DNA of 64,000 nucleotides from Monosiga brevicollis MX1 (Eukaryota > Opisthokonta > Choanoflagellata > Craspedida > Salpingoecidae), in contig NW_001865051.1 in assembly GCF_000002865.3 (NCBI RefSeq), positions 430,066 through 494,065 of the forward strand, in the 5' to 3' direction. This document shows positions 3,268 to 42,173 of the stretch, piece after piece (position 1 is the first letter of the stretch; each line of letters begins with the position of its first letter). The notes under the pieces are model-generated. The model saw nothing but the letters and a program-made list of their open reading frames with translations. It was not told the origin of the DNA and searched no databases. The translations under genes were made by a program, and so were the position numbers.

Positions 3268-6200
3268 TACACCTGGCTAGATGTATCGAGTTTGGTTGAC
3301 AAGTTCAACGGCAGGGCAGGCTGCGGTCGACTGGTGGTTTCATCGACTTGCGTCAAGCGACGGGTCATGGGGTTGCCATTGGAATCTGACGAGGCCGAAA
3401 CGTTGCGCGTGTCCATGAGCTCTCGATAAATAATAATCGCCTACAAAGACCGACAGGGTGGTTAGGTATGTATAACTGGCACCGTTGAAGATGGGGCAAT
3501 GAAAAACATTGTGCTGTGGCAAAATATGTTTGGGTTGCTGGTGAAATTATGCAAACCTTGAGCATGTTGTAGATATCCTTAAAGGCAGGTCGCTTGTGTG
3601 GGTCAGGGTCCCAGCCCGAGCGCATGATCAAGTAAAACGCGTCATCGCACCGGGTTGGTTGACTCAACCGGTACCCATTCAAGACCTGAGAGTCATCAGA
3701 CATCCAAGTGCAAACAAAGGCATCACACCATCGCGCAATCGCGATCAGCTACTTTGCTCAACATACTGAATCACACGGTGGCCAAACACAGCGTACCTCC
3801 ATTTGAACCTGGAAATTTGACTTGGGGCCATACGGTCGTTCGCCGTGGGTGAAGATCTCCCACATGGTAATACCGAAGCTCCAGACTACGGTCGAGGGCA
3901 TCAAATAAAGTCAGTCAAGGAAGAGATTAAGCAACCGAGTATATTTCTTCAACGGTGGTCTCAACAAAAGCACTCAAGCCGCATAGATGGGGCGCAGATA
4001 AGCAATGGCAAGGACAAACGCCGGGCTTGGCATCAAGACCAGGTGAGAGAAGAGCAGATGAGTTTGCTGCACAGGCGTACCATCGGTTGCTTCAGAAAAC
4101 TTGCGTGACACGACGGCCTCGGGAGCCGTCCAGCGGATGGGAACCTTGGCGGAACTTGCCGTGTAGTAGTCATCGGCGTTGGCCACGCCACGGGACATTC
4201 CAAAGTCCGAAATGACACAATTAAAGTTGCTGCGCACCCCACACCAAAAGGCAGATCAAACAAGACGCAAAAAGAGGGAATGAGCTTTCGCCACATCAAG
4301 GATTGTGGTCGCTCGGGGTGATCTGCCGAGCAAGCCTGGGCGAGACAGACACTTACTGTTCCAAAAGAATGTTTCGAGCGGCAATATCTCTGAGATTGGG
4401 GCAAAGTGTGGCACACAACCATCAGTCATCATGGGGTGCACGGTCGCACATGAATACGTGCCAGCAACTTCTCCAACAGCCCAATAGGCACGCACCGGTG
4501 CACAAAGTTGAAGTCAGCCAGGTAGCTCATGCCACGCGCAATGTCCAGGATGAAAAAGGGAAACCAGGATTCATTGGCATCCTCGCGGCGCAGGTACAGT
4601 TCAAGCGATCCGTTGGGGCAGAAAGGCATCACGAGCACAGGACTCTTGATCGTCACTGCCCCCAAAAGGGTCAAAACCTGCGTCGTCAGACATACGGGTG
4701 AAGAGCGGCGGGGCGCAAAAGTGGGGTGACCTCAGTTTAAATGGTCACGGTGAGGCACCCGCTTGCTGCTTTCTCAGTTGTCCCGGCAATCATGTTCACC
4801 ATACATACGTTGGGGTGATCAAATTGGGCTTGCAAAGACGCCTGGGTAGACAGTGTTCCAAGTACAAGTGAGGCGCTGAAACCAGGCACCAGTCAAGTGC
4901 GGTACTTTTGACTCACCTCTGCCAGCAAGTTAATGGCCTCTCGACGATCAGCTGTCTTCTTGAGCATCTTGACAGCTACTTTGATGGGTGTCTTTCCCTT
5001 GAGTGGCGGATCCACGCCTGCGGTTGACTTGGAAGGCAGCTGGGTTGGATCGAGCGTCGCGAGCCAGACCTCTCCAAATGCACCTACAGCACGTTAAATG
5101 ATGGGTCCTGGGTTGAGCGTACATAGCCAGCAAAGCCCGACAAGAGCAGCGCAACCAACATATTTTCCCGACCCAAATAGTTCGCGCAATCACGTCTGTA
5201 CATACATACCAGAGCCCAGAATTTTGTCGAGGACCAGAGAGCGCGAGGGCAGCTCGTAGGGTTGCTTGTTGCGATGGATGTGCCCGTACAACTCTTCGTC
5301 ATCCTCATTGGAATTCTCTTCCATCAGATCTTGATGCAAGTTCTTAAAGTTGTACGGTTTCTCGCCCAGCACGGCTTGTTCGGCCAGAATTTTATCGACC
5401 TGGCGGCGAGCACGCCGTCGCTCTTGGTACACCAGAAGCACGGCGAGAATGATCAAGACCACGACTACGGGGATTACAATACCGACAATGACGTCGGAGC
5501 CCGAATCACCCTGGCCACTACTGCTGGCAGCGATTGTAACGGCCTCTGTGTCACTCGCAGGGCCTCGACCTGCTGCTGTGTTGGCAGCGACGCGAAATTC
5601 GTATGAAACGCTGCGTTCCTTATCCAAACTGAGGTCATACATGCGCGCCGTCAGGAGCTGGGAGCTCGCCTCTTCACCGTCCACGCTCGTCCACAAAATG
5701 TAGGACACGATTTGGCCGTTGGGTTGCGATGGCGGGTCCCAGCTGATACGAACCCCATCGGCCGTCTCAAACGCAGAGACCGTAGGCGCGTCAAAGGGAA
5801 TACCTTCGGTCGTATTGAATGTGATGGGCGCACTGCGCGGCCCGCGACCCGCACTGGTTCGTGCAGCAATGGTTACATTATACAAGGCAGCTGGCAAGAG
5901 CTCGTCGAGCAGCAATTGCGGGGTCGTCGTTGTAAAGGTCCCTTGCTCCTGTCGCCGTCGCCGATTCATCAAAGGTTGTGTAGCAACAGCCTGATCAGCT
6001 ATGGCAGCACTGTCAACTTCAGCGTCTGGCTCGTCAGGGCCGGCAGCGGCGTTTCGAGCAGCGATGGTGCCGGTGTTATAAGTGCGCCCTACCCGCTCGA
6101 CGACGACCTCATACGTCACCTCGCCATTGGCGTCGGTGGGCGAAAGAGGGGCCCAAGACAGCTGTGCTGAGCGGGTGCTATCTGTTGCACTGCCAGAGGT

Positions 6201-9200
6201 GGAGAGGTCAGATACATTCGGCTGCACTGGTGCCACTGCAGGAATGTCTGTCGCCGTCAGAACCACGCGCAGAGCGAATTGCAAAGCACCAGCGCCGGCG
6301 TTGTTGATCGCCCGCACCCCAACAGCATAGAGTGTGTTGGGATGCAGTCCAGTCAGCTGAGCTTGTGCTGTACCTGCAGGTGCAGTCACAAGAACGGGCG
6401 TACGCGCGCAGCTGGGCAAGGGTGCGCGGCAGAGGGTAGGGTCCGGTGGTGCGGTTGGTGTGGAAGTTGTGGTGGTGCCCACGCTTGTGCTGCCGCTTGG
6501 AACCGTACTCAGCGTGGGGACCGTGCTCACACCCGAGCTCACGCTTGTCGGGCTCGTGCTGCTCGTAGTGGAGCGGGTGGTGGATGAGGTGGATGAGGTG
6601 GACGAAGTGCTCGTTGACGACGTAGCAATCGAACTTGCCGGCTGCGCTGTCAGCGTGGATCCCTGGCTCGCGTCGACGTCCTCAGTGCCGGGCTGAATGT
6701 TGCTTGTGGAGCCGCCATTGGCGGTGCTGCTCGTCGTTGAGGTGGAAGTTGTGGGGGTCGTGGGGGTCGTGGACGTAGTTGTAGTAGAGGATGATGACGT
6801 GGTGCTCGTCGTTGAGGTGGTGGTGGAGACGGCATCCGCGCAGGCATTGGATTGTGCAGCAGCAGTTGCGGCCCCGCGATCCGACAGGGGACAGGCGTAA
6901 AGCTCGTAATTGAGTAGCTCGCCATTGATGCGCTGTGGAGACTGCCAGGTCAAGGCCAGGTTATCAGTGCCAACTGAGACGATGCGGGTGGCCGTCACTG
7001 GCTGAGCTGGGGCCTCGGCCGTTCGTATGCACAGCGGATCAGAGGTGGGCCCGTAGCCCACAACGGTGGCGGCTGCCACCCAGATCGAGGTGAGAGTGTA
7101 TGGAAGCAAATCGGGAATGGTGAAGTTGACCAGGCCACCATCTTGCCAAGCAACGAGCTCAGTTCCCGTGATACTACGGTCCTCAACAGCCACAGGCTGA
7201 GCTGCATCGGCGGGGTGCGGGAAAAAGCTCTGCAGAAGCGTGTTATTCTCTGCATCACCACACTCGCTACTCTGCACCCACGAGACATTGTATTCTACAA
7301 TCTCGCCATTGGGAAAGTATGGTGGCCGCCAACTGGTGACCAACGAGGTGGCATTTATCGTAGTGCGATTGCCAAGATCTTGTACGGCCTCACCCGGGCG
7401 GCTCGGCAGAGTCGTAACGAGAATTGGCGTCGACGCCGGTCCAGCCAGCAGTGCCCCGTTACGCTCAGTGTATGCACGTGCATACAAGCGATATTCAGCA
7501 TTGGGCTCCACTGTCATGAAAACGAAAAGGGGAAAAAAAACAAAACAAAAAACATCCAGCAATTGAGCATCAGGGATGGCGGAGGAGCAAGCGAAGCCAT
7601 CGGGGTAGGTCCTCAGCCCCAGAACTAGCAATTGCAAATTCAGCAAAACCAAGTTCCAAAACCATGGCACAACGTACGGTTGGCAACGCTTAGCTGGCCC
7701 ACTTCGCTGTCATCAGCATCCACCACAATGTCGACTACACATTGTCTCTACACGGAAAAAAAAAAAAAAAAAATTGAATAAATAAAAATCCAACACACCA
7801 TCCGAGAAGATTACAAGCGTGGTGAGCAGCCCACGTCGGACGTGCGCGACCTTGACTGGTATGCAGGTTCAGGGCCCTGCATGCCTTTGCCATGTTCCCA
7901 GTTTCAAACAGTAGCTGTCACACTTACCGCGGCCTGTCCATCAGGGCAAAGCGTGCGAATCGTACTCGTCCACTCGTAGTTGAAGCGATAGCGCACAATC
8001 GGTCCCGTGCGCGTGACCGGCGCATATAGTCCAACTGTAAAGCCATTACTCCTGGAAAAACAAAACCCCAAAAGCCAAATGAACAAAAGCAAGAACGAAA
8101 CAAACCCTTCGGGACGCAAAGGCCAGCAACCGTAATCTCGCAAAGAACTCAAGTCAGAGCAGGTCTTTCGAGTGCAGGCCGAGACGCACCCGAGGCTAGT
8201 GACTTGTACCGAGGGCGCCTCGATGGGGGCGCTAACGGCTGTGCGTACGCAGGAGACGGCAAAGCTGCTCGACCCAATTTCCGTGTATGCTTCAACGCCA
8301 AAAATATAGTTGGAATAGGCCATCAACCCCGAGGCTGCATAGGCTGTGAAAATCGTGTCGGCACAAACATATTCGAGCTGGGCGAGTTCCTGAATGGTGC
8401 AACCGGCACTGGCGTTGGTGCGCCTGGCGTAGCACACACGATAACCCGTAATTTCACCGTTGTCTGGGTCGGGCCGATTCCAGCTGAATTGCAGCGAGGT
8501 GGCTTGCAAGTACGTCGCGGGAAAGCGAAGGTCCAACGGAAGGGTGGGACGATCCTCCAGCGTGAAACCACCCACAATGGCAGACGAATCGTAAAAGACG
8601 TCGCTGCGGGAGAATGCAATCACATAAAACTGGTATTGGGTATCTGGAACCAAACCCTGCACCCAGAACGCCGTGGTGTCTCTAAGGGAACCACAAAAGA
8701 AACAAGAGGCGGATGTCAAGCACAGTGCACGCACTCCGCACCAGGCATGCTTTGAGGACCAGCGAGTTGCGAAAGAGTCGACGAACGCAACTTACGCGTC
8801 GACGACCAGGCCAAAACCTTGCGGTGTATCCACGGCCCCGAGAGGATACTTGAGGTCCGTACCGTTGGCCAATTGAAAGGATGGGCCTTGGGCATACAGT
8901 GCATATCCGCCCAAGCTCGTTGTTCCTGTCGGTGGCTGCCACTCGATCAAAGCCGCCCGTGAAGTGATGTTGGCAACGCGAACGAATCGCGGCGCATTGC
9001 CTATGGGTTTTCAATGAAGAGCCATTTTTGAGAAAGCGAAAGCACACGACGTTGGGAGAGGCATGCATGTGTTCAAGCACCGTAGCCTTGAGTGAGCATG
9101 GGCATCACCTGAGCTACGCTGCGTTTCCGGGGCTATGACTGGCTCGGAGAAAGGTCCAACGCCGACTTGGTTGATGGCAGCAATGGAAACAAGGTAAAAT

Positions 9201-12200
9201 TCATTGTACTCGAGCCCTTGAACAACGGTGACACCAGCATCCCCATCGGCTTGGATTGTGAGATTGAGCGGCAGATCGGGCAAAGATTGCGGAGTCACGA
9301 TGAGGAAGTAGGCCGATACCTGACCATTCTGGTCTTGGGCATCAAGGCCATCCCAACGGACGAGCAGGTTGTTTTCGATGGCGTTGATGGTCACGATAAC
9401 AGGAGCCGCGCTCGGCAAGGCGGGTGCGGTTTGGAAGGTACTGAATGCCGACGTGGGACCCGAGCCAGCGTCATTCATAACAAGCAGCGAGGTCTGATAC
9501 ACTTGATTGGGGCGTAGGCCCTCCACGGTAACGGGCGAGGCGGTCGCGTTATAGGTCACAATCTCCTCAGTTTCGCCATCCACTTCGGCCACGCGCGCGA
9601 CTTGAATCAGGTACACAAGCGAAGCCACTGGGCCGTTGATAGCCCCCGTCAGAGGCGTCGTGGAAAACGACAGCTAGGTCGAGCCCACGCGTAGATGAGC
9701 ACGAGAGACGACCCCAATGTCGGACAACGTAAGAACATGACAGAAACACCGCAAGAGTTGCCAAAGGTCGGTGATTTGAGGCAGCGGGAGCGCCAGCTCA
9801 ATCACCAGCCATGACGAGAGGGCAGGGGCAGTAGCAGTAGCAGGGACAGGGTATTGAAGGCAAAGCGGTCTCAAGGTGAGATATCACACAGTGTACTCGC
9901 TTCGTACCGTGACATTTCGTGACCCACGACGAACAATGGCGGGGGCCGCCAAGACGGCTGTGGGTGGTGCCGAGAGTGAAAGAACTTCAATGTTATTCGG
10001 CAAGCTGGCGCCGGCGCTGTTGATGGCCACGACCACGATCGCATACTCGGTGTACGGGGTGGCGGGGATGGTAGCCGTCAAACCCGTGGCCTGTGACGAA
10101 AGGAAAAGCGCGCCCACAGCGAAATACAAGGCACATGATTCTGTCAGACGCTTGGCCTTCTTTGCCAACTCATGAGGATCCTTGCAGCTTCATGAAAGAA
10201 CGACCAAAGATACGCACTGAGATGGTGAGCGTTTCGCCCACAGAGTTGGCAAAGGCACGCGTGACGTTGTATGAGGTCACGATGCCATTGGGCAGCTCTG
10301 GAGGAGCCCAGGTCAAGGTGATGGACGTCGACCTAGAACAGGTGAAGGGAAATGCAAATCAAATGAACATGGCGGTCACCTTTTTCTATTCTTACGGTTC
10401 GTTCACGAGCACATGCACGTGCAGGCCACACGTCGTTGCCCGTGCTCGTGCACGTGAAAGCGATAACTCAAGCGGATACACGAGCGTACGTGATGTTGAC
10501 GGCCTCAAGGGAACGAACGGCGGAAGCTTGTCCTTGTGCTGTTGTGAACACGACGCCCATACTTGCCGGGCCGATACCCTCGATGTTTTGAACGGCCACC
10601 GTCACCGTGTATGCGCGATATGGCCGAAGGGCAGTCAGCATCAGGCTCGTCGTGGTTGGGTCCTGTGAGGAAGCAGGTAGGCCCGGGCTTGTAATGACAA
10701 CACGGTAGCTTTGCAGCTTGCCGTTGAGCGTGAGTGGTGGCGGTGATTCCCATGACAGTTGAGCTGTGGTGGCTGTTATCTCAGAAACCGCCACGTTCAG
10801 CGGGGGTGCACTGGGAATGGCCGCGTCCGTGTCCACGCCGACAGGAAGGGAGAAGGAAGAATTGCTGCGAGAATCGGCGTATGAGGCCCACAGCGTGTAC
10901 GAGCTGAACTCTTCAAGGTCGCAGAGATAAAAGGTGTTGCTTGCATCACACATGAGGGTTCGGTAGAGAAAGTTGAGAGGGTCGTCCTCCCGCGAGGCAA
11001 TCAGGAAGTGGGTACCACGCGGCCCACATTCCAGTTCGGTGCAGGTGGCATTTGTGTTGATGTGAAGGAGCGTTGGCGCAGGGGGCACCTGCACTGCTTG
11101 TGTCGCGGTGATGCCGGCAACGGCGATGGTAGCACGCACGTAGACCCCGCTGCCAACCGTAAGCGTGTAGGCCTCCTGACCCACCACGCGGATGGAAGAG
11201 GTGGAAGCATTGTTGATAGTGATGTTCAGAACAAAGGTGGCATTGCCCACCACGATATTTTCAGTGGTCCAACTGATCTGCAGTTGTGTCTGGCTCGCAG
11301 TTGGGCGCCCCTGGGTCGCACGAACAAACTGATATCTCAGAGGGTCTAAGACAACGGAGGCAGGAATGCGTGGATCTTGCAGGGTCGTAAAGTTTTGTTC
11401 AACAACCTCGCCCGCCCCATACGTTGTGTTGAGCACTTGAAACTACATAACCGGGCGATGACGAATGAGACGGGCGGCCTTTGATAAGTGCCATGTTCCG
11501 TGAGAGCCCCCCTCTCAAGGATAAGGGAGGGGGGGCCACAAGCAGCAAGGCGTCTCGTTTGGATAGGACGGATAAGACGGATAGGACAGGTAAGAACCAG
11601 CCCACATCAAGCACTTTGAAAACTTTACCAACCTGGAAACGGTAGGTGCGCAAGGACAGAAGGTCGGCCGTGATCCTAGCGGTTTGCGTGAGAGGAATGT
11701 CGTGCTCTTCCACAAAACTAAGAAAGCCATCCAGACCATGTGCGCAAGGTGAGCGTGATGATGAGTTTCCCAGCAGGCAGGCTTTGGGCACGGGGCACGG
11801 TCGGAGGACCATCAACCTACTCGAAAAACATGGTGCGCACGGTTAAGCGAAGGTATGCATGTTCCACACCATCTTCCTCATTGAGGCTGGGTGGTTGCCA
11901 GGCAAGAGCGATAGCGTCGAACGTAACGTTGGTGGCGACAATGTCCGTCACAACGAGGTTCGGCATGGGCTGCGTGGCGGCGCGTACTACCACCGGGGTG
12001 CTTGCACATGCCAGGCAATTGCCTCGTGTTTGCAAAGTGATGGTCACCGTTTCATTTGGCCAAAGTTGAGTCAGGGTCAGGTTGTTAGCGCTGGTGGGCA
12101 GAGTCAGGGTACCTGCATTGTTGCTTTGGGAGGAAGTGTAGCTGAGGTCGATGGCGCGGGCACGGTTGTCATCGCTGGCCAATGACCAAGTGATGGTGGC

Positions 12201-14204
12201 TGTGGTTGTTGTGGTGCTAAGGACTACGTTTGAGACGGCTGGGGCAGCGGAAAGAAGGGTCTCAAGAGTGGCACTGTCGTTCACGACGGAGGATTCGTTT
12301 AGCGTTATGGTGGCGGTGATGGCATAGGTAGCACTTGATTCAACACCAAAGGTGATGGCGCGGGGGCGTAGGAGATCGTGGCAGGTCTGCTGAGTGAGTG
12401 CCGCCAAAGTCATAGTGTCCTCCTCAGAGCCGCCATCAGCGTCCAGGCGCGTGGCTTGGAGGGTGGTGCGCATGGCACGGCATTGGTCGTTGTACAAGTT
12501 GCCCGTCAGGAGCGACAGGTCCCAGCCCACAACGGCTTGTCCCGACGTGGAGAGGGGCAGGACCGGTGTCAAGTCCAGAGACCAGTTGAAGGTCGCGAGC
12601 CGTGCTGCCAGCGACGTCGAGGGCCGAAAGTACTGCGCGCCAACAACCTCCACGACTGAAGTAGATGGGACCGGGGTGGTGGTGCTGGTGGCGTTGGGGT
12701 CGGGGTTGGTGGTCGAACTGGGGTCATCGTTGTCGGGGGCGGCGAGGCGAGTGGCGACGAGGCGCACCCAATAGCTATGGTCAGCCAGGGTAGGGGCTAC
12801 GAACTTACGAGCCACGTTGCACGGGTTTGCGTTGAGGGGCACTTCAAGAACGGTTGAGGTGTGAAGGCTCTCCAGCTCAAGGGTGTATGAGGCGTTGGCC
12901 AGAGTGGAGCAGTTATCAACGGTGAGCAGGACGCGACTCACGGACCCGTGGTCAAAAGTCAGATTGCCCGCTGGGGCGGCGTTCAGGTCACTCTCGACCA
13001 GGGTTGTGATGGGTGCGGGAATTGGAGGTGCATCGTCATCAAGGACCGCGCGTATGTGTATGGTGGCATTGGGCCACAGAGGAACGCTGAATGGGGTAAA
13101 GGGGGATGGCTCTTGGGGCAGGAGGACCGTGTAGAGACGGTCGCCGGCGGAGCTGTCGACGGTGATGTTGAAGGCCACGGGCAAGGCGCTAGGGAGGGAC
13201 GCGAGCATGGCTATTCGAGCTACGAGGGCATGGGGGGCCTGCGTGTTGCCACTTGCAAGCACGGGATGAGCGCCACGACCCAGGATCTGGACGTCGAGGT
13301 CAGGAAGCCGGTCAGGCCGGCTATGACAGACGGCATCCTGGGCCGCGACAGGGTCGTTGACTGGTGCACTGGGGTCAAATGCAAAGCTTTCGGTGCTTGC
13401 AAGACATGGAGCGAGAAGAACACAGGGTGAATCGAGGTCGGGGGAGGCTGAGAAGCCGGGCACACAAGGCTGGCAAATGGTATCTGCTTGCTGAGAGGCG
13501 GGGAGATATGGCTCGGTGCCGGCGGGGCACGGGGAGCCGGCTATGCAAGTCTGAAGGTCAGGGGTATATCGACCTGGGGGGCAGAGTGGGCACGTGACGG
13601 AGTCTGAGGCGTTGAGACAGGAAGCATTGACAAGGGCATTGGCGTCTGGGGTGGGATCGGGCGTCAAAACATTTTGTAGACGGATGGTGACGCTCGTGGC
13701 TCGCAGAGCGGCGTCGCAGGCGGCTGGATCAGCATCGCATTCGGGGCAGGAGCTGGCGACGGAGGCCGGGTTGAGGGTATATAGGACAAGGACCAGGGAT
13801 GCATTGGGTTCAGGATTGACGATGCCAGGGTCGACGAGCTGGAGGCGGATGGCACCGGTGGAGAGCCAGGTCCAGGTGTTGGGCAGCGTGGTAGGCTGAA
13901 AGGCGAGATGGGGAATAAAGGAGGTGTTGTCAAAGCGAAAGTAGCTGCAGGAGGGCAGCAGAAAAGTGACGTTGAGAGGCAGGCTGCTCAGGTCAACCAC
14001 AGTGTCAGCGCTTTGCTCCAGCCGCAGGTCAAGGTTGATGGTGCTGGTCGAGCTCTGGCCTCGTGCGGGCGCCAAGCATGAAAGGAGGAGGGTCAAGAGG
14101 AGCAGCGAGCACGCAACGAAGGAGAATGGTCTGGTATGAGGCGTCGGTCCGGTCGTGTGCCTCTGCAGCGCACGACGGGAGCGCGCAGCCCGGTCGTCGG
14201 GCAT
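3268..14204 (-). CDS. Receptor tyrosine kinase with Cys-rich region, FN3 array and intact kinase domain
   Basis: Single-pass receptor tyrosine kinase. The ATG at 14204 starts a protein with a signal peptide (hydrophobic SFVACSLLLLTLLLSCLAP), an N-glycosylation-rich ectodomain, a Cys-rich segment (CPLCPPGRYTPDLQTC onward) and about ten fibronectin-III domains. A Ser/Thr-rich mucin-like insert (about 6430-6840) interrupts the FN3 array. The TM helix (VIVGIVIPVVVVLIILAVLL) is followed by a basic stop-transfer run. Kinase exons are 5210-7510 (end), 4917-5083, 4809-4841, 4496-4677, 4357-4389, 4081-4229, 3797-3885, 3557-3685 and 3268-3440. They give GSGAFGEVW, VAVKML, HPN-LTLLGAVT, HRDIAARN, DFGMSRG, the activation-loop pair DDYYTA, RWTAPEAV and DVWSFGITMWEI, all in phase. 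Catalytic Lys, Asp and Asn are present, so an active Tyr kinase is expected. Splitting into two genes near 11.5 kb is possible but unlikely, because FN3 domains continue on both sides. I cannot assign a metazoan subfamily. Confidence 0.88.
6430..6840 (-). repeat. Ser/Thr-rich mucin-like insert inside the receptor FN3 array
   Basis: The minus-strand frame reads almost only Thr, Ser and Pro for roughly 130 residues, with a short break near a Gly-Gly-Ser-Thr-Ser stretch. It splits an FN3 domain between its early strands (ending near LLNYELYACPL) and its later strands (from LTGLHPNTLYAVGVRAINN). Such composition is typical of heavily O-glycosylated stalks (known for mucin-like domains, inferred here). 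The short codon repeats probably expand and contract by slippage. Confidence 0.7.
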
Positions 14205-16186
14205 GACGGCGGAGCCACCTGGCCAGCACCAGCGGTTGTGGGCGCAAACCAAACCGCCGCGTCAAGCTGCTGGCATCGAGGGTGGGATAGCTCAAACGGC
14301 CCGAGCCACGGCATGAACCAGACCGGGGTGCCGGGCGCAAGGGGTCTAGAGTGTCTAGAGTGCGATGAAGAATGTTATTTGGGGGTGGGGCTTGGTGCGC
14401 GATGAGATGGGATCGGGCGCTACAGGCACGGGTGAAGCGTGGCACTGGAAGGGCGTGCTGTCTTGACTGGGCAGAAGAAGCGGGTAGTCACACAAGTCGG
14501 CGCCAAGGGAGGCGCGCAGCAAACTAACAACAGAGTTTGCCGAAACCAAGCAAGGGCACGCGTGAAAGGAGGCGAGGGTGGGAGCGTGTATGCATGTGAT
14601 GACGGCGAGCTGTTATCGAATGGGCAGGTCAATAGCATTTATTGGTATTCTGGTGATCACGAGCCACGCACCGACTGGTTGTGAGACGAGGGCAGAGCCG
14701 TTCCAAAACGGCAGACCGAGCCTGTCTGTGACCGAGGTGGCCCTATCTGCGAGGCTGCACGCACGCTTCCTCGTCTGAGTGACCGACACAACTCGAGGAC
14801 TTGCTTGTTGCGTAGCAATGGCGCGGGTCGGGGGTGGTGGTGTCGTCCCAGCGATGACGACAGGAAGAAGAGAGAGGCACAGAGAGAGAGAGAGAGGGAC
14901 TGCATGCACGCTGCGATGAGCAAGGAAGCAGAACCGGTCTCGCTTCCAGAGCCGAAAAGAGAGAGAGAGAGAAGCACGATCGAGTTTCGAGTCGCCCACT
15001 GATCGAGAGAGAGAGAGAGAGAGAGACGCACGAGCGTACACACACACACACGACACGTTATGGTGTTGCAGGGGCAACATTCGGTCATCTGCATACATGC
15101 ACCTGGTATGCATGGGCAAGCGTATCCATTGTCAGATGTATTTGTCAGATTTATGAGCCCGACCAGAGTTACGTGTGCATGCCTTGTTGTTATGGTCCAC
15201 GACGACAACCCTTAACTGCAAAACTCCAATGTCAGACGATATCTGGATTGTGCTGTTTTCGTAGCAAGTTGTGTACTTATTGTAGATATGAATGAGTTCT
15301 CAGAACTAGTTTTTGTAGTGTAGTGTAGAGTTTCTGCGTGATACTGTGGTTCTTGTTGCAACGACACACAAGCACAACGGCTCCATGTCAGTGGGGGCAT
15401 AAGTAACCGCACCAACACAACACAACAGCTTCTTCAACTTCTTCAACCACCACTGCATCAAGTACAACGGGCTCGCCCTTGGTGGCCGCAGGAACGACCC
15501 GGGACTGTGGCAACAACTGTAGTTGTGGTCAATGGGGACCACTTTGTTTTATTTTTTTATTATTTTTTTTTGCGCCGTCACTCGCGTCAGTCGTCGCCGG
15601 GTGCTCGTTGCTGATCGCCTTGAAGTCTTGACTGTCGCGGTTTCTGCGGTCGTGATACCTGTGCTTGCGTTGGCGCCGCTCTCGGGTTTACGACGCTGCT
15701 CTTCCTGCTTGTGCATTCATTCGTCTTTTGCGATCCGCACACACACACAGAGCACAGGTCCCTCGGTCGCTGTTCAGACCCTTCTCCTCTCCTTGACTGT
15801 TCACGTTCAGCTCAGCCAGGTATGCTTGCGTGACGTCGGTCGCGGGGGGCGTAAGGGACCCACCCGGCATCGCAACGCTTCTGCAAACAGAGGCACATTT
15901 CCTGCCAGACAACCCATTTGGCTTGGCGTTGCCTGCATATGAAGCCGCAGCAAGAGCTGAGGACTCGCCCCTCGGTTTGCGTTGGGTCGATCTGCCACGC
16001 CACCGTCACCGCCACCGCCACACCTCACCCACCGCCCTCTCCTCAACCCGTGTTCTTGCGGCACAGACTTGACTGACCAAATCAGCCATTTAGCGCCGGT
16101 TCTGCACCCGGCATCGCCTTTTGCTTTGCCCCTCCCCAACCGGGGGTGGGCCACGCCACGCTCTCCTCTGCCTTGAGTCTCTCAAG
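14205..16186. other. Divergent intergenic region with GA and AC tracts
   Basis: This lies between the receptor kinase start (minus) and the BCAS3 start (plus), so it should carry both promoters. It contains GA-rich runs at about 14870-14905, 14960-14975 and 15004-15026, an AC run near 15040, and a poly-T stretch at about 15544-15572. No coding exon is convincing. Confidence 0.5.
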
Positions 16187-22488: not shown

Positions 22489-23334
<846 letters not shown>

Positions 23335-26300
23335 TCACACTGATATCGCGCAGGCAGCAATGTCGCTTGCACGCTGAACCAAAGCATCGTAGTCGTCCAC
23401 AGTCAGGATGAGCTTGCTAAGTGCAGCGCCATCCGTGCGATCTTGGCTGTCAAACTGTCTGGAGCGCCCAACATAGTACGACACGTTTGAGGAAGACACG
23501 CCCGCACCCGTGAGTACAGCCATCAATGTGGCATCAAGTTCGTCCACGATGCGCCGTGCCGTCGCAGTAATAGCCCGAGTTTGATTCCGATCACTGTTGC
23601 TGCCGTCCGTCTGAAACAAAACGATGCGTCTTGAGGCGTTGTAGCGAGCCGGATCGCTTGCCTTCAAATCCCGCAAGCTCTGCTCAACCAACTCCAGAGC
23701 TGGCAAGTAGTTGGTCGCGCCATTGACGGCAATCTGAGCCACGCGCTGTTGCAGCTGAGCCCAGTCGGAAGTGAACAAGGGCTCACTGCCGAGCGCAGTT
23801 GCCGTCGTGCCAAACGTAAACAAGGCCATGCGGTGTTGGCTTGCAGCAGAGTCTAGATGGAATCCTTCACGCGCGATGGTGCGCACAAACGCCCTTGCCT
23901 GTTCCATGTAGTCGGTCATGCTTCCGGACACGTCGACCACCATCAAGACGTCGGCCGCCTCTGCATACTCAGCATGTGACGAGTATTGCTGAACATATCG
24001 CAGGGCACGCTCTGGATTACCTTGTCGGCCAGCAAAGAGCTCATCTCGCAGCTTGAGAGAGGCCACGTGGGCGGCCTCGCACTGCCGCAGTGCAGCAAAG
24101 GACGCGTTCAAGAATTCCGCGTGCACAGCCCGCCGTGCCTGATCAAGCGCGATGGGCAGCTTTGAAAAGCTGCCGGATCGGATGGTGTCTGGGTAATGCT
24201 CCTTGAGCAAACTTTTAAGATCCGGCAAACACAAAACGAGGCGGTAGCTACCAGGATTGTCCTCTCGCGCCGTGCGGCCCTGAATCTGAATCTGCTCGGC
24301 AACTTCCGTGGACAGAAAGGCCTGAATGACATGCACACCACCCTTGGCCTTGATGTCACGATTAAGCACCGTAAAGTCTGATCCTCGGCCAAAGGGCGCC
24401 GTGGCCAAGGTGATGGAGTTTTGGCGCGTGGCCTGCCGAATGCGATGAGGAATGTCTGGCTTGCCTACATCAATAATGTTGATGTCGCGCCCACCCAGCT
24501 TGCCCTGAAACTCAGCAGAGGCCTGGAAGGCCTCGCGTGCTGTCGAATTGGGGAAGAACACAATCACGGCGCGTCCCGAGGAGCGAACATGACACTCGTC
24601 GGCGATCGCTTGATGCTGCTGCGCCATGTTTTCGGTGATTAGCACCGGATCAAGCACGAGCCGCGTGGCGCCATACATGGAGGGCATGACGCATTGGCGC
24701 TCAATATTGAAGCGGTCGTTCAAGAGAGTCGTGTCTTCAGGCATCGTGCCAGTCACGCCAGAAATCATATCAAAGCTTTGAATAATCTTCACGAAACTAA
24801 AGTGCCCTGCCGTAAATAGCATGCCAATGTGATCGGCGCAGACTTCGGGCGGCACGCGCCCACGGCCTTCTTCCATCAGGTAGGCAAACTGCGTCTCGTA
24901 GCCGTACACCACATCAGCGCTGTTTTCATCCAGACCCTGCCGCTTGTACACAATCCGCCCTTGATCGTCAACGCTGTGTGGGTGCTGGTTCTTCTCAATC
25001 GCAGCCCGACCTGCCACTACGAGGTTGAAGATGGTCGGCATCAGATTCTTCGCGTGGACATATCTCTGTAGCAAGGTCTGGGCTTCGGGTAGCTGCTGAA
25101 CCTGCTGAGCTGTGAGCGTTTTATTGCTCCACACTGCTCGCATGAGTGCGGTAAAGTCCTTGTCGTGAACAAGCGTGCCTGGGTTGTAGGGCTCCGTCAA
25201 GAAAACGGGCGACAGCAGAGTGTCCACTTCGTCGACCAAAAGAATTGTCGGCCTTGTGTGGCTCTGAGGCTTGCCGTCGGACAGCTTGCCCGTCACAATC
25301 AAGGTTTGGAGAGCATCCCGGATGTCACCAGAGGTATTGAGCGCCTCCCGTGCCAAATCTGTCAAGGTGCTGTATTGAATGTGTTTGCTCACAGCTAACA
25401 GCTCAAAAAAGGCCTTAAAGTCTTCATAGTCGCGAGTACTGAGGATGGCGCTGTAACAGGCACAGGCCACATCAAAGCCCAGGAGGCTGTAGATGACGCT
25501 AGCAAACCCCAGCAGAATACGCTTGCCTCCACCCGTTTGCAGCTGTACAAAGGCACCTCCAAGCTTGGACTTGGCTGCATTTGGCACGAAGCTCTTGCAC
25601 CAGGCACCAAGGCCAGCAATCCACCCCTTGGACTGGCTCAGCCCGACAAGCTCGAACAGGGCCAGAATTTGGATGACATGCAGCTCCTTATAGATGCCGT
25701 GACTGGATTTGGTTGTTTTTGCAATTGTTGCACGACTGGAGAGGCTCCAAATGGCAGACAGATACGCCAACAGGACGGGTAGCTCACGCTTGAGCGCGCT
25801 GGCATCCCGTGCCAGCTTACGGCCATGCTGTTGTGCCGCATGCACCAAATCTGGAATGGCAGATGGTGGCTTGCGGATCAGATATTCAAACTTGGCCTGA
25901 TACCGATTGTACGCCTCTCGCAATTGGTCAGCATGTTTTGTCGAAATGGCATTCGTGCCAAGCTGCATTTTATTCAGCGCAACGTCAAGTGTCATGCTTC
26001 GAGTTGCCTCCTGGCGCTGACGGATGAGGGCTGCTGCAAAGCGCTTATAGTCTCGCTTCACCTCCTCACCGTACTCGCCTGCTGCTGACAGCGCATCTCC
26101 TAGGTCTAGGTCTGCGGTATCATCAGGTCCAGTAGTCTGCACCTGGTCAAGGCGCTCCTTTGTTCGACGTTGGACCTCAGCCTGAACTTCGTCCGAGATA
26201 CAATTGGACGCGAGTTCTTGCATACAAGCCAAGCAGGTTGCCAGGCTCGCCAGGTTCTTATTGCCCACTTTGTCAGCTTCTTGGACAAGCTGCAGCAAGG

Positions 26301-29300
26301 CTTTGACTTGCTCCGACGCCATCGAGAGCGCAGGCGCAGGCAATTGGGCCTTGGCTTGTTGTAGAAAAGCGCCGTCAAGGTCGAAGGAAAAGCGCAAAAG
26401 GGCATTCATGGGCTGCCAATCCTTGGTTTTAGCACATGCTAGCACGCTGGTCACGGCCTGGCGAGCAAAGTTGAGCAGAGAATTATCGAGGCGGCGCCTG
26501 GCATCCGCAAAATCTCTCACCAAATCCGCGTCGGCAACCACCTTGAGCTGGCCAATCCATGCATAGCATGCCGCAATCTCGTCAACCTGGTCATGTGCAG
26601 ATAAGCGCTGCTTAAACACTCGAACCAGGTCTTGCGTGAGGCTACGCCAATGGGCGACAATGGCAGTCAGCGTTCTGGCAGGGTCAAACGAGCTCCTGGC
26701 TCCAAAGAAGTTCTGGCTGCGTTGCTGCGCTTCAGCTTGCGAGCTAGCCAGGTATTTCAGCCTTTCCAAGCGTCGGTCCAGCTTTTCAGCTTCAAAGTTC
26801 GGGGTCAAAATGTCGTTCAGTGATGGCTGATCAACATCCTCTGCCCCCAACTGCGCGCCACTCGTCTCCGCAGAAACATCTCCTTTGAGTTGTGCGAAAC
26901 TCTGCTTAGCGTCTTGAAGCAAGGTCATATCAAAGCTCTGCGACTCCTCCAATCGCTTCATATTCCCGTCAAAGATGGCAAACAGTCGCTCGACGCCCTG
27001 AACGTCAAAAGCTCTCGCCATGTCAATGAAACAGTTCAGATCATCATCTGCCCGTTTGACAATGGCATCGCAGGCTGGCACGATGTAACAGGTTTGAAGG
27101 GTCATCAGGAAAGAATCTAAGCCCTTGTCTTTGAGCTCTGTCTCCAACGCCAATAAGCCCAAAACACGCCCAACAGCTGCTGCTGTGAACAACGTGCCAG
27201 TCCTTTTGTCCCTCAGCGCTTCAGCCTGGCGGGTTTGCAGCTCTTGGACGCCGCGCTGGCAGATGTTACGCAGCTTCGAGACGAAATTTGGCCTCTCGTG
27301 AACACCATCTTTGGCAAAAGTTTGTGCCAAGTTTCGAGCGGATTCTGGTGTCAGCAATTCTAGATCCTCTGCATCCTGGGCTTGTTGTATAGCATCATGC
27401 ACCTCATTTCGCTGTACACTCAAAGGGCTCTCCGAAGATTTGAAAGGCGGCAACTCGTCCCCCTGCAGAGGGTTGTAGAAGAAATCATCAAACCCACACA
27501 GCTTCGCGCGGGCCAAGCTTGGGCCTAGTTCAAAGAGGGTCGTTTCAATCTCGTCAAGTTCCTTGGCGGCAGCTTGCTCCACCCACTGGTTGACATCATC
27601 GGCCAAAGCCAGCAAGTTTGGAAAGAGCGTGTTGTCAGGGTCGTACTCTTGTGCGCGAATACGCTCAACAGCCTTGACAAATCGACTCAGTTTGGGGCCG
27701 GCACGGGCTTGCACAAGCTGCTCTACTTGCTGACGTATGGTCGTGTCAATCTCTCTGGCGTATACTTCAACTTCTGCCAAGTTGCCTTTGGGTTCAGCTG
27801 GCATTTCGTTGGCAGCATCGTTGTTTGCGTCCAGAGAGCTATCGTGAATCAGCCGGCTGGCGTCAAATACGTCATCGCGTTCGCGACTCCTCCAAGAAAT
27901 GAGCAGTGCATACAAGACCTCGGCTGTAGCAAACTGGTTTGTCGTGGTTGCTTTCCACAAGCGCTGGTGTAGACGCTTGTAAATGCTGCGGATACTCTTG
28001 GAAAATTCAGCCTCCACGTCGTGTAGCTGAAGATCAGGAAGGACCGGCGCAAGCACCTGCAGCCTGGACAGTTTCTCGTCCAACTCATCCATCTCCAGCA
28101 AGGTGCCTTGCAGCTTGTCGCCATGGCTCTGCGATTGCAAAACCTGCCGCTCCATGCGCCGTGCTTGCTTCAGTATGTCCCTGGTCGTTGGCGCAGCTGA
28201 CGCACCGCAGATTGCACAAGAGATCGGTGGCATGCAGCCCATTCAGGCGTTTCATGTGTTGCAGCGAGCTCGGTGAGAAGTTGCTCAGCACACTCATAGT
28301 TTGCCTCCTCTAGATACGCGTCAAACTGGGACCTGATCTCCTTCAAAGCGCGGTCGTCATCGTCATGCAAGTGGGCTAATAGCTGATCAATGCCAGAAAA
28401 GTGCTCCTGCAGTACGCTGGCGCCCAACAGCGCTTGTTTGGTCTCTTGAGCACTCGCGAGATTGCCACTACTTTGGTTCTGGCGGTGTTCCAAAACGAGC
28501 TGCTCCAACTTTCGGTTCACAGCATCCTTTGCTTGCGCATACACGGGCTGCCCAAGCTTCTGCATGTCGGGGTTACAACTGTCATTGAGGCCTTGGAGGT
28601 AGGCCAGCTCAGCTCGTGTTTGCCCGAGGTCCCCAGTAGCCGTTGCACTTCGGACTGCGTCAAGCAGAGTTTGCGCATGAGCTTGAACTTGGTTCATGAG
28701 ATCGGTGCGCCTGACCTCTAGACTCGTACGCAGAGACGACCAATCCTGAGACTGAAACAAGGGACAATTGGAGCGGATGTGCTCTGCAAAGGCAATGGTG
28801 CGGACCAGCCAGGCCATGTCGTTCTCCCGCGTTGTGGACGGAGCCTTGACAACTTCAAAGGCCTGCAATGTTTTGTCAACCTCGTCCACCGCTGTTGTGA
28901 GGCGACGACACTCGAGTTCAACGTGCTCAGGCCCCAGCGTGTCTTGTAGAGGATGAAAGCGGCAGAGATATTGCACCTCAAAGTCATTGATTGGATCCTT
29001 GGTTGAAATCGACTCGCACACCGAAGAAACGAGGCTGCCAAGGCTCTCGCGCAGCGCCTGTTCTGTGCGTCGCAGCACAGACTCGGTCGTGGCAACTTGA
29101 AGCACGGTGACCATTTGTACAGTCGCGTTGTCTTCATGTGCTTCAAAAAGCTCTGAAGGCTCTTGCAGTATCCGACCATCCACGATGATGGGGTCAAGGC
29201 AGCGATATGAGACGAGCTTCTGCGTGGCGCGAGCCATAGCCTCGAAAGCATCTTGACTTGCTTGGCCCTCGACGATTTTGTCAAGGATTATGTTGCTCTC

Positions 29301-31172
29301 CGTGTGCAGAGCGGCCAGCTGGCTGAGGAGTGTGCGCGCTTGATTCTGCACATCCCGCACCGCGCTATTGCGTCGAAACACTGCGACAAGCAGCGAAAGC
29401 TGCTGGAGACTCTTTTCGGCCGCCGACAAATTGTTTTTGGCCATTGCATCATTAATGGGGCGTCCAACGCCGGTCCGAATGGCGCCTTCAAATGTGGCCT
29501 TTTGGCTCTGAAAGTACGGCGCCTGGCCGGGCGGCAAATACTTGGAAGCAAAATTTTCTTCTAGCCCTTGCAACAAATTTAGAGTACGCCCGAGTCGCTG
29601 GACTGTAGCCTCATCTGCACTGCAATCGGCAATCAGGTCGCTGATGGTCTGGATCACCTTGCACATGATCTCGACCGCAGCGTTGAGCGCTTGCTTGTCG
29701 TTCTCAAACATGGTTTGCACGACCTCGAGCTCCGAGACAGAGCTATAGGCACAACCGCGTTCATGCAGGTCGAGCGCCTGGTGCAAAGCCGGCCATTGAT
29801 TATAATCAAACAAACCAGCTTGTTGCGTGCTCTCTTTTAGAGCGGCAACCACGGTGCCAAGCGTGCGCTGCGCCTCTTGGGCGTGTTCGCGCAACTGCTT
29901 GGCCAAGGGCGACCAAAGCTGCTTGACTTGGCACATCGATGCCAAGCAAGAATCAAACTGGATCAGTTGCGGCACCTCTGGTAGGACGTCGGCATCAAAT
30001 GGGAGTTTCTCATTGGCCTTGCGGATGCGATCATGCAAAGCCTCTCCAACGGCGCGTGCCATCCCCTTCAAAGTCTGTAGCAGTCGAGAATGATCCCACG
30101 ACTGTGTCGACAAATCTTGGAGCTCTGGGCAAATACTGCCAAGCTCCCAAAGCTCGTGTTCGGCCACTGATGGCTGCTGCAACTCCGAATTGAAACAAGA
30201 CAACTTTTGCAGCAGCTGCATTTGACGTGCTGCCTCGTGATACTCGGCTGCACGCAACGCACTGACAAAGCCCTGGATGTGGCGCTGTACTAGCGCCGCC
30301 ACCTGGCTAAGGCCCGAAATGTAGCGCTCAGTAATCGCTTCATCGGCAATTGGTTCAGCAAGGATGCGCATGGTGGTCAAGGGGGCAGCGCCTTTCCAGA
30401 AGTTCTGCTCCTTGTTTGTCAAGATCTCGATCAGCTCCTCCAAGCGCTTGCCGACGACAACCCGAACTTCGGCCACCTCGCTATCCTTCAAGGGGGATCC
30501 CAAGGTTGCCGACCCACTTGCGCTGTATTTAACGTGCTCCAAGACGCGGTACCATCCAGCATCGTTATCGTCTGCAGTGCAACGAGGTTGAAAGGAGGAT
30601 TGACTCGAGTGAGAAAAATGTAGGATCGGTAAGGACGCCTAAGCGAGCCGAATCGGGTGATGCAAAGATTTACCAGCAGACTGGACGTGACGAGGATGGC
30701 AGTCCTCGTAGTTTTGCCCAAGGCCTGTGGCGTGCGAGTATGAGAAAAGCGGGTATCGAGTCGAAAGAAACATGGTGGGCTCGCCGACCTCACCTGAGAA
30801 AAGCAAGGTATTCTGTGTTTGTTTCAAGCACTTTGGTGGCCCAAGACTGTCATCACTGTCACTATCACTGTCACCGTCACCATCACCATCATCATCACCG
30901 TCACCATCCAGGTCAGGATCCAGGTCGATGACTTCGAAATCTTCATCTGCAGCAGGTCCACGCCGTGCTTCTAAAAAGGTTTTAAGACATTGAATGAAGT
31001 TTTTGGCGTCTCTTTTCTCTTGAGATGACAGTGAACCGGGCAGAGTATCAACTTGATCCGATATCTGTGCCACACAATTGAGCAACTGCTCAAACGCCTC
31101 CGCTCGGTGGAAATCGTCGTGCATTTCAATGTCGCTGAACATGGCATCTACGCGTTGTTGATTCCTGTTCAT
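23335..31172 (-). CDS. Giant SecA-like ATPase with C-terminal vWA domain
   Basis: About 2,500 residues. Exon 1 (30794-31172) encodes an acidic Asp-rich N-terminus and splices in phase (G|AC) to an exon starting at 30571 that runs 7.2 kb to TGA at 23335. The N-terminal ~1,500 residues are predicted helical with no recognised domain. A SecA-type DEAD motor follows: FVQLQTGGGKRILLGF (Walker A position, about 25.53 kb), ACYSAILSTRDYEDF, ILLVDEVDTLL (Walker B), SGVTGTMPED, TLATAPFGRGSDF and IQGRTAREDNPGSYRL (motif VI). These match bacterial SecA motifs in order, but Walker A has GKR instead of GKT/S. The C-terminus is a vWA domain with MIDAS DVSGSM and QTDGSNSD. No signal peptide or TM segment is seen. 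The reading frame changes within about 28.17-28.24 kb. That may be a 38-base GTGCGT...AAG micro-intron, an assembly indel, or two genes (790- and 1635-codon frames). Function is unknown; a remodelling or translocation ATPase is only inferred. Confidence 0.8.
28170..28242 (-). other. Reading-frame switch inside the SecA-like gene
   Basis: The upstream frame ends with TGA at 28170, while the downstream frame is open from at least 28242 and includes an ATG there. Both frames are coding-like right up to the overlap. A GTGCGT donor and a GAAG acceptor 38 bases apart would join them in phase (length 2 mod 3), but 38 bases is very short for this genome. A one-base sequence error is equally possible. 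Confidence 0.6.
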
Positions 31173-38813: not shown

Positions 38814-39794
38814 GAACAGTGTTTGCAGTGTTTGGCACGCATTGCTCTGCTTGATTCCATCTGCCATGTCGCTGGTCGACGCCCCCTCTTGATGTTTTTG
38901 TGATGTCCTTTAATTTCACATGAGCAGTTCTGCTCCTACACCCCAAGTTGACCCCACCGATATCATAATTGACCCCTCCGCTCCTGCTGGTGCCTGTTTG
39001 CTTCTTTTGCTTTTTTTGCTGACAATCAGAGAACAACAAGGAAGGTTACTCATTTCCAATCTAAGGTACAAGAGAGAGTTGACAAGAGGAAAGACAGCTC
39101 GTGCGGAATGATCCTCCCGTCCGCTCTCTCATCTCTCATCTCCTCTCTCTCTCTCCAAACCAATATCATCTCTCTTCTCTTGACAAAAATAACTTTTTCA
39201 TTTTACCGCTCTCAAGTGGGTTTTTTTTTTTTTTTTTTTTTTTTTTGGGGGGGGGGATCTTTTGGCAGCGCAAGGATAGAGGAAAGGGGTGGGCCGGGAT
39301 GGTCATGGTGCGTGCAGGGGTCTGATTCATCGGCTTGCTTGTCTTTGTGTTTTTTCAATGTTGTAGACCTCGGTTCAGGGTGTGAGCTGAACACGGCCCG
39401 CTCGCCCGATTCGAATCGAGGATTGACTTTCGGTTTGGTGCAAACAGGTGTGTGTTCCCGGTCAAATCCCTCCCTCCCGCCCGGTCAAGGCGTGCATGTT
39501 CGTGTGTCTGTATGCATGTGCGTGTGTGTGTGCATGCGCGCGTGTGTGCATGCTTTGAATCGGTAGTGCCATCTTTCCATGGGCCGCTCTGATTGTTTTC
39601 GAGCAACCTTGTTCCGCCCCTGCCTTGACCTCCGCCCCCCTTTTTTTTATTTCTGCTGAAAACGCGATTGATTTTGCTGCCATTGTGCCAGCCCTTGAAC
39701 GTCTGAGCGGCAAATCGCCAGAAGACCGCTGACGGTGGACACCTGATCTTTTTCTTCTTTTTTTTTCTGATACGTCTGCAGAGCAACTGGCATC
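38814..39794. other. Intergenic region and likely 5' UTR of the PTB-kinase gene
   Basis: Contains a CT-rich run near 39122-39180, a poly-T/poly-G junction at 39218-39256 and a TG-rich patch at 39495-39550. A CTGCAG acceptor just before the kinase start (39776-39781) suggests a 5'-UTR intron. No coding exon is convincing. Confidence 0.5.
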
Positions 39795-42173
39795 ATGGCA
39801 AAGCCGGCAGGCGAGCTGCCTGACTTTGACAAGATGAAGCACAAGACCATGATGCGGATGGGTGAACTCACGGCCATGGATGAGGAACAACGCAAGCTCA
39901 TCATGGAAATGGTCAAGCAAGGTTCCCTCACGGTTGAAGATGCCGTTGATGAGGTCAAGCGGATCAAGCCCAAAACTGTTGGCTGCAAGTTTCTTGGAAG
40001 CTGCCCCTCCCTGGTCGAGGGCACGGGCGTCACTGCCCAAAACGCGGAAGCCCTCATCAGCAACGCCCTGGAATACTTCAAGCAGAACAAGATTGTGACC
40101 GTCAAGGCCTCGGCCATGATCTCCACCATTGGTCTCCGTATTGCGGATCCGGCCGAGGATGGCCTCGTGTATGAAAACGAGTCCATGCCCATGATCCAGC
40201 ACTTCTGCATCAGCGGGGGAAAAACGCTGGCCGTCTTTGCTGTTCATCACAAGCTAGGCCTGGTCTACACCTACCTGCTGCAGTTTGGCAAGGCTCGCGA
40301 AGCAGCAGATGCCCTTGAGCTCCTGCAGGATCGCCAAGCTCTGTCCAGAGAGACCAAGGTCCTGGGCGGCGTTGCTGAGGAGAATGAAGAAGACGAGGAA
40401 GGTGACGAGGGAGCGGACGTTGATGATGATGATGATGACGACGACGACGACGAGCAGCCGTTCTGGCTCAGCCACGTCTACTACGTGGGCACCATCAATG
40501 CCGCTGATCATTCGGGACAGAACACTGTCGAGCACGCCATGGGCCTTTTGGCCGATCAGGTTCGCGGCAAGCCGACCAAGTTCAAAGACCTCGCTGCGAC
40601 GGATGGTCATCGTGTTTGCCTCGTCTTCTCCGCCGAGGGCGTGCGCGTGGTTGACGCAGCTACAAAAGAACTGCTTTTCAACACGCTCGTCAAGGCTGTA
40701 TCCTTCCATTGCACGACCAAGCTGAAAAAGGGCGATGCTTTTGCTTACATCGAGGTCGACGACCGCCGCTCTGACAACGAATGCCATGTCTTTGTGTGCC
40801 AGCGCAGCCCCAAGAATCAAGCTGACCAGCTGACCGAGGCTATGAACAAAACTGTGCAGATTGGCAAGGACCGTGTGGGCAACCCTTTCCGGGCCTTGGG
40901 CAAAAAGCGGGAAGCCGTGTCAAGCTCTGCTCTCGCTGCCATTCAGCTGCCACGCAAGAGCCTCAAGGCCGTCAAAGCCATTGGTGCTGGTCAGTTTGGA
41001 AAGGTCTACCTCAGCGAATACTCTGTTGATGGGGCCGAAGTCGAGGGCGAACCCGAGCTGCGTGCTGTCAAAATGCTGCGTGGCCAGGCCTCCGACAACG
41101 ATCGAGATGAGTTTCTGCGTGAGGCAGAAACCATGCTCCAAATCGGCGCACACGAAAATCTGGTCTCGCTCTGCGGTGTTGTCCTCAACAAGCGACCCAT
41201 GCTGATGGTTCTCGAATACTGCCAATATGGTGATCTCAGTGATGTTCTGCGCTCGCTCCGACGGAAAAACATCAAGCTGAACCTCGGCGAGCAGCTGCAC
41301 ATGGCCAATCAACTGGCAAGCGGCATGCAATACATCGCCTCCAAGCACTTTGTACACATGGATTTGGCTGCCCGCAATTGCCTCCTCGGTCCCAACAGCT
41401 CGATCCGCATTGCTGACTTTGGTTTGACGAGACCCCATGACAACCAGAAGAACTACTACAAGCAGCAGGGCGTCATGAAGCTCTCCATTCGCTGGCTTGC
41501 CATTGATGCCTTTCAGTACAAAATTTTCTCTGAGAAGAGCGACGTCTGGTCCTTTGCCGTCACTGGTACGTGCCCTTTTGTCGCCCCTGCCCTGTAATTC
41601 GCCCGCGTCCCACCTGTCTCCTTCTTGGTCTTTTTTTTTTTTTTTTTTTTTTTTACCCTTCGACATGTTCTCACCTGGTGCTGCTGGCAATGCCAAAATC
41701 AGTCTGGGAAATTTTGGCGTACGGCCGCCAGCCGTATCATGGAACTGAACTTAAGCAGGTTATGAAAGCAGTCATTGCAGGGCGGCGCCTCAGTCAGCCC
41801 AAGGAGTGCCCAGACGATGTTTGGGACATGCTTTATTCTTGCTGGATCAAAGAGCCCAACCGCCGACCCACCTTCCGACAGCTCAAAAAGGCCGTCGATT
41901 TTCTCATGGCCGAACACAAGATTGAGCTCTCCGCCATCCGCGATGTCGGGGCCCTGCTCAACGCCGACTTAACGGAAAACATTAAAATGCTCACCCTACA
42001 GCGTCGCAAATCCAGCCGCGCTGATGCTGGCGCTCGCAAAGGTAAGCGCTCTAATCATCGCGTGCCTTCCCCAACCCTCTTTCCATTATCGAAGCCGTGC
42101 CTCATGCACCTTGCATTTTCACCATTACTTAGCATCTGCTGCACCATCGGCGATGGGGGCATTGGCCGAATAA
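39795..42173 (+). CDS. Cytoplasmic tyrosine kinase with two N-terminal PTB domains
   Basis: Exons 39795-41565, 41703-42041 and 42133-42173 join in phase to 716 codons plus TAA. No signal peptide or TM helix. Residues ~60-190 (CKFLGSCPSLVEGTGV to REAADALELL) and ~225-350 (YVGTINAADHSGQNTVEHAM to VFVCQRSPKNQ) look like two PTB/PID domains, separated by a Glu/Asp-rich linker with ten consecutive Asp. The kinase starts at ~395: IGAGQFGKVY, LRAVKML, EFLREAETM, LVLEYCQYGDLSDVL and DFGLTRP, with DVWSFAVTVWEILAYGRQPY across the intron. Two motifs deviate: the catalytic loop reads FVHMDLAARN (HRD Arg replaced by Met, Asp kept) and the APE position reads RWLAIDAF. With catalytic Lys, Asp and DFG present, activity is possible but its regulation should differ. 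An AATAAA overlaps the stop codon. The PTB calls come from pattern and position. Confidence 0.83.

Follow-up and report, generated by a model that had tools for sequence, protein, structure and literature searches.

At positions 23335-31172 of the 64,000-nucleotide stretch of Monosiga brevicollis MX1 considered here (contig NW_001865051.1, positions 430,066 to 494,065 of the forward strand; referred to in its full length as the window), a gene on the minus strand encodes a SecA-like motor joined to a von Willebrand factor A (vWA) domain. Sequence comparison indicates that it belongs to a nuclear family composed of a P-loop G-type domain, an arm of about 1,550 residues, a SecA-type motor of two RecA units and, in two of the three intact members, a C-terminal vWA domain. 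The motor frame covers 23335-28242 (1,635 codons; this and all other features of the gene lie on the minus strand), and in it the SecA-type motifs and then DVSGSM follow one another in order, as had been claimed in an earlier reading of the letters alone (the sequence-only reading). Walker A, TGGGKR (25519-25536), starts at residue 903 of the frame, motif II (Walker B), DEVD (25222-25233), at 1004, motif III, SGVTGT (24745-24762), at 1161, motif V, FGRGSDF (24373-24393), at 1284, and motif VI, GRTAR (24265-24279), at 1322, all within a motor region supported by profiles, the limits of which (23968-25755) were chosen by us. DVSGSM starts at residue 1437, within the vWA domain (23338-23958). The Walker A site, which that reading gave as a position, reads TGGGKR where the three intact paralogues have TGGGKS.

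These paralogues were found by searching the host genome (39.47 Mb in 57 contigs, designated here by contig labels such as C51) with the window frame, which gave seven matches: the window itself, C51 (93% identity), C31 (48%), C48 (40%), two small pieces in C52 and one piece in C41. Three of them are intact and single-frame, namely C51:70152-78524 (2,790 codons), C31:68311-76554 (2,747) and C48:684721-692415 (2,564), while the C52 and C41 pieces are scattered across several frames, one with an internal stop, and look like relics. Near the start of each long paralogue, a P-loop (GKSGAGKS, APTSSGKT or GDSGVGKS) with DP[AP]G after it was recognised by eye, and within the host genome this domain matches only the three long paralogues and the C41 piece. 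In the long arm that follows, the middle 1,536-1,571 residues contain 6.5-7.1% proline plus glycine and 52-54% helix-favouring residues; the stretch of about 1,500 residues described as helical in the sequence-only reading was therefore recovered as helix-like composition, which fits a probably helical arm without proving it. No convincing internal repeats were detected in the arm by hhalign self-comparison, the best secondary alignment reaching 4.4%. Identity between C51 and C31, calculated per 100 residues, is 22-37% over residues 401-1800, 55-76% over 2001-2500 and 56-66% over 2501-2790, which indicates that the motor and the vWA domain are the constrained parts.

The window copy departs from this plan in its upstream half. 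According to an exon-intron model inferred from sequence, predicted exon 1 (30794-31172) begins with an ATG at 31172 and comprises 126 codons and one base, a predicted frame-preserving GT-AG intron of 222 bases with good consensus ends (GTGAGG ... TGCACTGCAG) occupies 30572-30793, and predicted exon 2 (28190-30571; 6.8% proline plus glycine) encodes the first half of the helix-like arm, the second half of which (25756-28173) lies inside the motor frame. Between the two halves the reading frame is shifted against that of the intact C51 paralogue (28185-28195), and the upstream frame stops at about 28170. The predicted intron and the one-base shift, near 28189, break 23335-31172, which had been taken for a single frame.

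Kinship of the motor with SecA is indicated by several comparisons. When Pfam and NCBIfam matches of the motor frame were taken at E up to 1, seven of the eight NCBIfam models were SecA or SecA2 (best E 8.5e-10, 37.3 bits), all far below their cut-offs, which are at least 800 bits for the SecA whole-protein models; the eight Pfam matches included no AAA family. Pfam SecA_DEAD scored about 20 bits on the window copy (19.6-20.0), below its cut-off of 24.6; C48 (34.9 bits) and C51 taken together with its neighbours (24.8) pass that value, and C31 (22.0) falls short of it. Against PDB sequences, a phmmer search with the window frame at E up to 1 returned 14 matches, 13 of them SecA and one SeqA, and a four-sequence profile at E up to 0.01 found SecA in 22 of 22. 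An hhalign comparison of the family with three SecA/SecA2 proteins gave a probability of 98.3% (E 1.6e-14, 471 columns, about 20% identity), rising to 99.4% with five SecA-type proteins including one symbiont protein and the C16 protein described below, whereas the controls E. coli UvrB and RhlE reached 0.9% and 6.6%, respectively; the comparison is not quite even, as each control was a single sequence and the SecA side an alignment. The profile searches and controls thus favour SecA in the test by which the sequence-only reading could have failed, and the family motor is a member of the SecA-type superfamily rather than a generic DEAD helicase, a candidate ruled out on the same grounds.

Motifs I, II (DEVD), III, V and VI are shared with SecA and SecA2 and similarly spaced, at 903/1004/1161-1162/1284-1285/1322 in the motor frame of the window copy and 90/198/359/478/514 in Lactococcus lactis SecA2; motifs II and III are 158 residues apart here, compared with 161 in L. 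lactis SecA2 and 180 in E. coli SecA. The insert between them, of about SecA2 length, is collinear with SecA in hhalign, and SecA_PP_bind was not among the Pfam matches. In contrast with SecA and SecA2, the family does not have a full scaffold, wing and tail: only about 107 residues separate motif VI (1322) from the vWA domain (1429), which implies that these parts are missing or reduced, and SecA_SW was absent from the Pfam matches of the motor frame. The P-loop domain, the long arm and the vWA domain are additions, and in motif V the residue immediately before GRG is Phe in the family but Ala in the 12 other aligned rows.

The C-terminal vWA domain with a metal ion-dependent adhesion site (MIDAS), on which the sequence-only reading had also staked itself, was borne out at the level of profile match and residues. 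VWA_2 matched the window frame with E 1.4e-10 and 42.2 bits (cut-off 27), and the MIDAS is complete, with DVSGS at 1437, the T of GATNY at 1508 and the TDG of QTDGSN at 1544. The domain is present in C51 and C31 as well as in the window copy, and both paralogues keep the MIDAS residues.

As for the window copy itself, most likely it arose by recent duplication of the C51 gene and is now non-functional or dying. The two are 96.2% similar at the nucleotide level over 7,169 aligned bases (30513 to 23346, BLAST); by eye the similarity spans about 30511 to about the stop codon (23335-23337), the flanks being unrelated on both sides and the 3' flanks giving no alignment. The abrupt ends of the 96% segment thus fall mid-gene at 30511 and near the stop at 23335. 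The P-loop domain of the intact paralogues is missing, and exon 1 is unrelated to it. The window copy has one base fewer than C51 near 28189, by which its upstream part is split from the motor frame; a micro-intron was considered as the cause of this shift and judged unlikely by eye. In Walker A, the Ser of the three intact paralogues is replaced by Arg, and since a Ser or Thr at this position normally helps to hold magnesium, the window copy has probably lost normal ATP use. The lost domain, the frame shift and the altered Walker A all speak for decay, which makes a dying duplicate somewhat more likely than an intact gene. As a representative of its kind, the gene put forward in the sequence-only reading therefore holds up in its motifs and vWA domain, while its truncation, frame shift and altered Walker A, and the P-loop domain of its paralogues, had not been foreseen. 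It is the wrong copy for study and not the best family representative; the intact C51 paralogue permits direct tests.

With regard to function, we propose that the family protein is a G-domain-gated, ATP-driven protein remodeller whose target is held by the vWA domain, the window locus being a partial, dying duplicate of C51; to this reading, in which the remodelling part is inferred, we assign a probability of roughly 45%. The vWA domain would bind an acidic residue of the target through its metal, the motor would thread or pull the bound polypeptide, with the SecA2-sized insert possibly acting as a clamp, and the G-type domain and arm would switch or assemble the machine. Rea1/midasin is a vWA-bearing remodeller with an AAA+ motor, and by analogy the family could work as it does, or as MoxR-vWA systems, where an ATPase motor is used together with a vWA domain (PMC8195603), with a SecA motor replacing the AAA+ module. 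The pairing of an ATPase motor with a vWA domain is the likeness, and it is one of analogy only; the motors are AAA+ in these systems and SecA-type in the family. To our knowledge, SecA has been studied almost only as an export motor; if the proposal is true, here is a SecA motor working without a membrane channel, which has kept the ATPase core and insert, dropped or shrunk the docking parts and gained a MIDAS hand and a G-type domain. More tentatively still, and with the odds rather against it, the single chain may constitute a non-AAA+ eukaryotic remodelling machine in which a G-domain switch and an arm of 1,500 residues are combined with a translocon-free SecA motor and a target-capturing MIDAS hand.

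Several results weigh against the proposed remodeller and its dying duplicate. The P-loop domain, scanned in three members, had a best Pfam E of 0.0036 (AAA_16), with AIG1 not listed, and against PDB its best E was 0.12, GIMAP5 standing at 0.3, none of them significant, so that the profiles place it in neither GIMAP/AIG1 nor another named GTPase family. No vWA structure was listed in either of the two PDB sequence searches, and the vWA call consequently rests on Pfam and the MIDAS residues. No vWA domain was found in the C48 frame, and inspection by eye of C48:692300-694400 in its three forward translations showed none either; the hand is therefore not universal in the family. The sequence-only reading had called the motor signal-less, and the top three hydrophobic 19-residue segments of each protein are not N-terminal. 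A soluble location of the proteins is assumed; the usual guide value for a membrane span is a hydropathy of 1.6, which is exceeded by peaks in or just before the motor, the highest being 1.95-2.13. In C51 and C48 the highest peak closely follows Walker A, where it is probably a buried motor helix, and in C31 it shortly precedes the motor. Lastly, among those of 2,086 columns in which the three remaining copies agree, the window copy alone departs at 7 and C51 alone at 6, which argues that, apart from the shift and the altered Walker A, the window copy has undergone no excess decay, and the shift near 28189 may be an assembly error or very recent.

This last result leads to the alternative that survives best, namely that the gene in the window is whole and expressed and the shift at 28189 an assembly error; it would then be a variant that lacks the G-type domain, has acquired a new exon at its start and has a changed motor. 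Not a single stop occurs in the 2,388 codons compared with C51, and dN/dS is 0.38 (154 of the differences are non-synonymous and 120 synonymous; p 1.8e-13 in a binomial test against the neutral share); together with the symmetry of the departures, this means that the window copy is young or that the shift is an assembly error, and the frame-preserving intron and the ATG also fit an intact gene. However, the Arg in Walker A replaces a Ser that the three remaining copies share, the similarity to the paralogues starts abruptly mid-gene, and the first 88 residues match only themselves in the host genome (E up to 0.1), for which reasons we consider an intact gene possible but doubtful.

For the family as a whole, a weaker candidate than the remodeller is a sensor of innate immunity or against invaders, in which the G-type domain and motor form a nucleotide switch assembling on invader material and copies turn over through conflict. 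The several copies, one of them a 96% recent duplicate and others probable relics, agree with this, as does the fast-evolving arm. The effector domains listed for the symbiont Amoebophilus include both a GIMAP-type GTPase and SecA-like domains (PMC3482391), and ATPase-vWA pairs are described as the core of bacterial conflict systems (PMC8195603). An immunity role is kept possible by the copy turnover and by these symbiont effectors, but no confident effector or death domain was found (Death_3 scored 17.3 and 13.7 bits, cut-off 27), the four pieces given to PADLOC had no match at E up to 0.01, and four large copies make a modest expansion; altogether we regard it as rather unlikely.

It is less probable again that the family is a true eukaryotic protein translocase or a motor of secretion that, like SecA, drives proteins through a membrane. 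Such a motor would account for the SecA motifs with their SecA2-sized insert, and the hydropathy peaks near the motor are compatible with membrane contact. There is also a bacterial parallel, as secondary SecA_DEAD proteins adjoin type I secretion genes (Kamneva et al. 2015, PMC4452313); like the family, these have a SecA motor with SecA_SW missing or as a fragment, although they are bacterial, and vWA goes unmentioned in the part of that paper drawn on here. A Methylosinus protein among the matches (638 residues) likewise has type I secretion genes as neighbours, and by these we think it is of the secondary SecA_DEAD kind. Nevertheless, the short distance from motif VI to the vWA domain with its missing or reduced scaffold, wing and tail, the lack of a SecA_SW match and the long tree distance between the family and SecA stand against a translocase, and it is the missing or reduced docking parts together with the presence of the MIDAS hand that lead us to favour a remodeller. 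The weakest candidate, an ordinary superfamily 2 (SF2) nucleic-acid helicase with a vWA domain, is very improbable given the PDB profile matches and the UvrB and RhlE controls, even though SecA and SF2 helicases have a common RecA core and RhlE aligns over 52 columns around motif VI.

The tree mentioned above was built from 16 rows with 539 of 805 columns kept (Rhizobium and Paenibacillus loci without a usable annotated protein were left out), and it places the four family members on one side of a 100/100 branch of 3.69 changes per column, with C16, three Rickettsiales giants and the SecA rows on the other. As 3 of its 13 inner forks are open, four rows are odd in composition and few sequences were sampled, its only safe result is that the family is remote; the family does not group with one bacterial lineage among these rows, the outcome that the sequence-only reading would have taken as a sign of recent transfer. 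Recent transfer from bacteria was also set aside because limited searches revealed no close relative in bacteria, phages or viruses: pattern scans of contigs from bacteria, archaea and viruses, which need exact short peptides and so reach close kin only, confirmed no relative, and tblastn matched none of 50,697 phage records. Among 72,556 plasmid records, the C51 piece had 13 matches (21-26% identity; 4 annotated as SecA, SecA2 or SecA-like) and the C48 piece 28 (20-42%, the higher values over short stretches; 15 so annotated), the remainder being unannotated, hypothetical, DEAD/DEAH helicases or "prepilin peptidase". In PHROGs, the motor and the vWA domain each matched one family, both of unknown function. 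In a literature search that fell short of most subscription papers, no paper on eukaryotic SecA-vWA proteins was recognised.

Giant SecA-like genes are also carried by plasmids of Rickettsiales symbionts of Euplotes, with 1,589 and 5,225 codons in Ca. Megaera polyxenophila and 2,966 in Ca. Bandiella woodruffii. These Rickettsiales giants resemble the family in being giant proteins with a SecA-type motor, and one of them is the nearest bacterial row by tree path. The 1,589-residue Megaera protein is 25-26% identical to the family over 203-214 residues; it scores 128.8 bits with SecA_DEAD, and no vWA domain was matched in it at E up to 0.1. The host has another giant SecA-like gene in a single frame, at C16:126515-137638 (3,707 codons), which encodes ankyrin repeats. 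It is like the family in its genome, its one long frame and its SecA motor, and differs in the ankyrin repeats, in motif V (AAGRGTD), in a SecA_DEAD score of 167 bits and in its place outside the family on the tree. It matches two Megaera giants (E 5e-54 and 3e-53) and SecA on 129 plasmid records (E up to 1e-10), and a scan of viral contigs with its motor found nothing. Elsewhere in the host, a 218-codon frame has a weak SecA P-loop domain match at C30:295467-295673 (19.2 bits, cut-off 27).

In the window around the gene, a GA dinucleotide array of 342 bases (22571-22912) lies about 420 bases downstream of the stop codon. Further downstream, at 5190-14261 on the same strand, four open frames match fibronectin type III (the fourth below cut-off) and are perhaps parts of one large gene, and at 39771-41597 on the plus strand an open frame contains a PTB/PID domain and a tyrosine-kinase-type domain.

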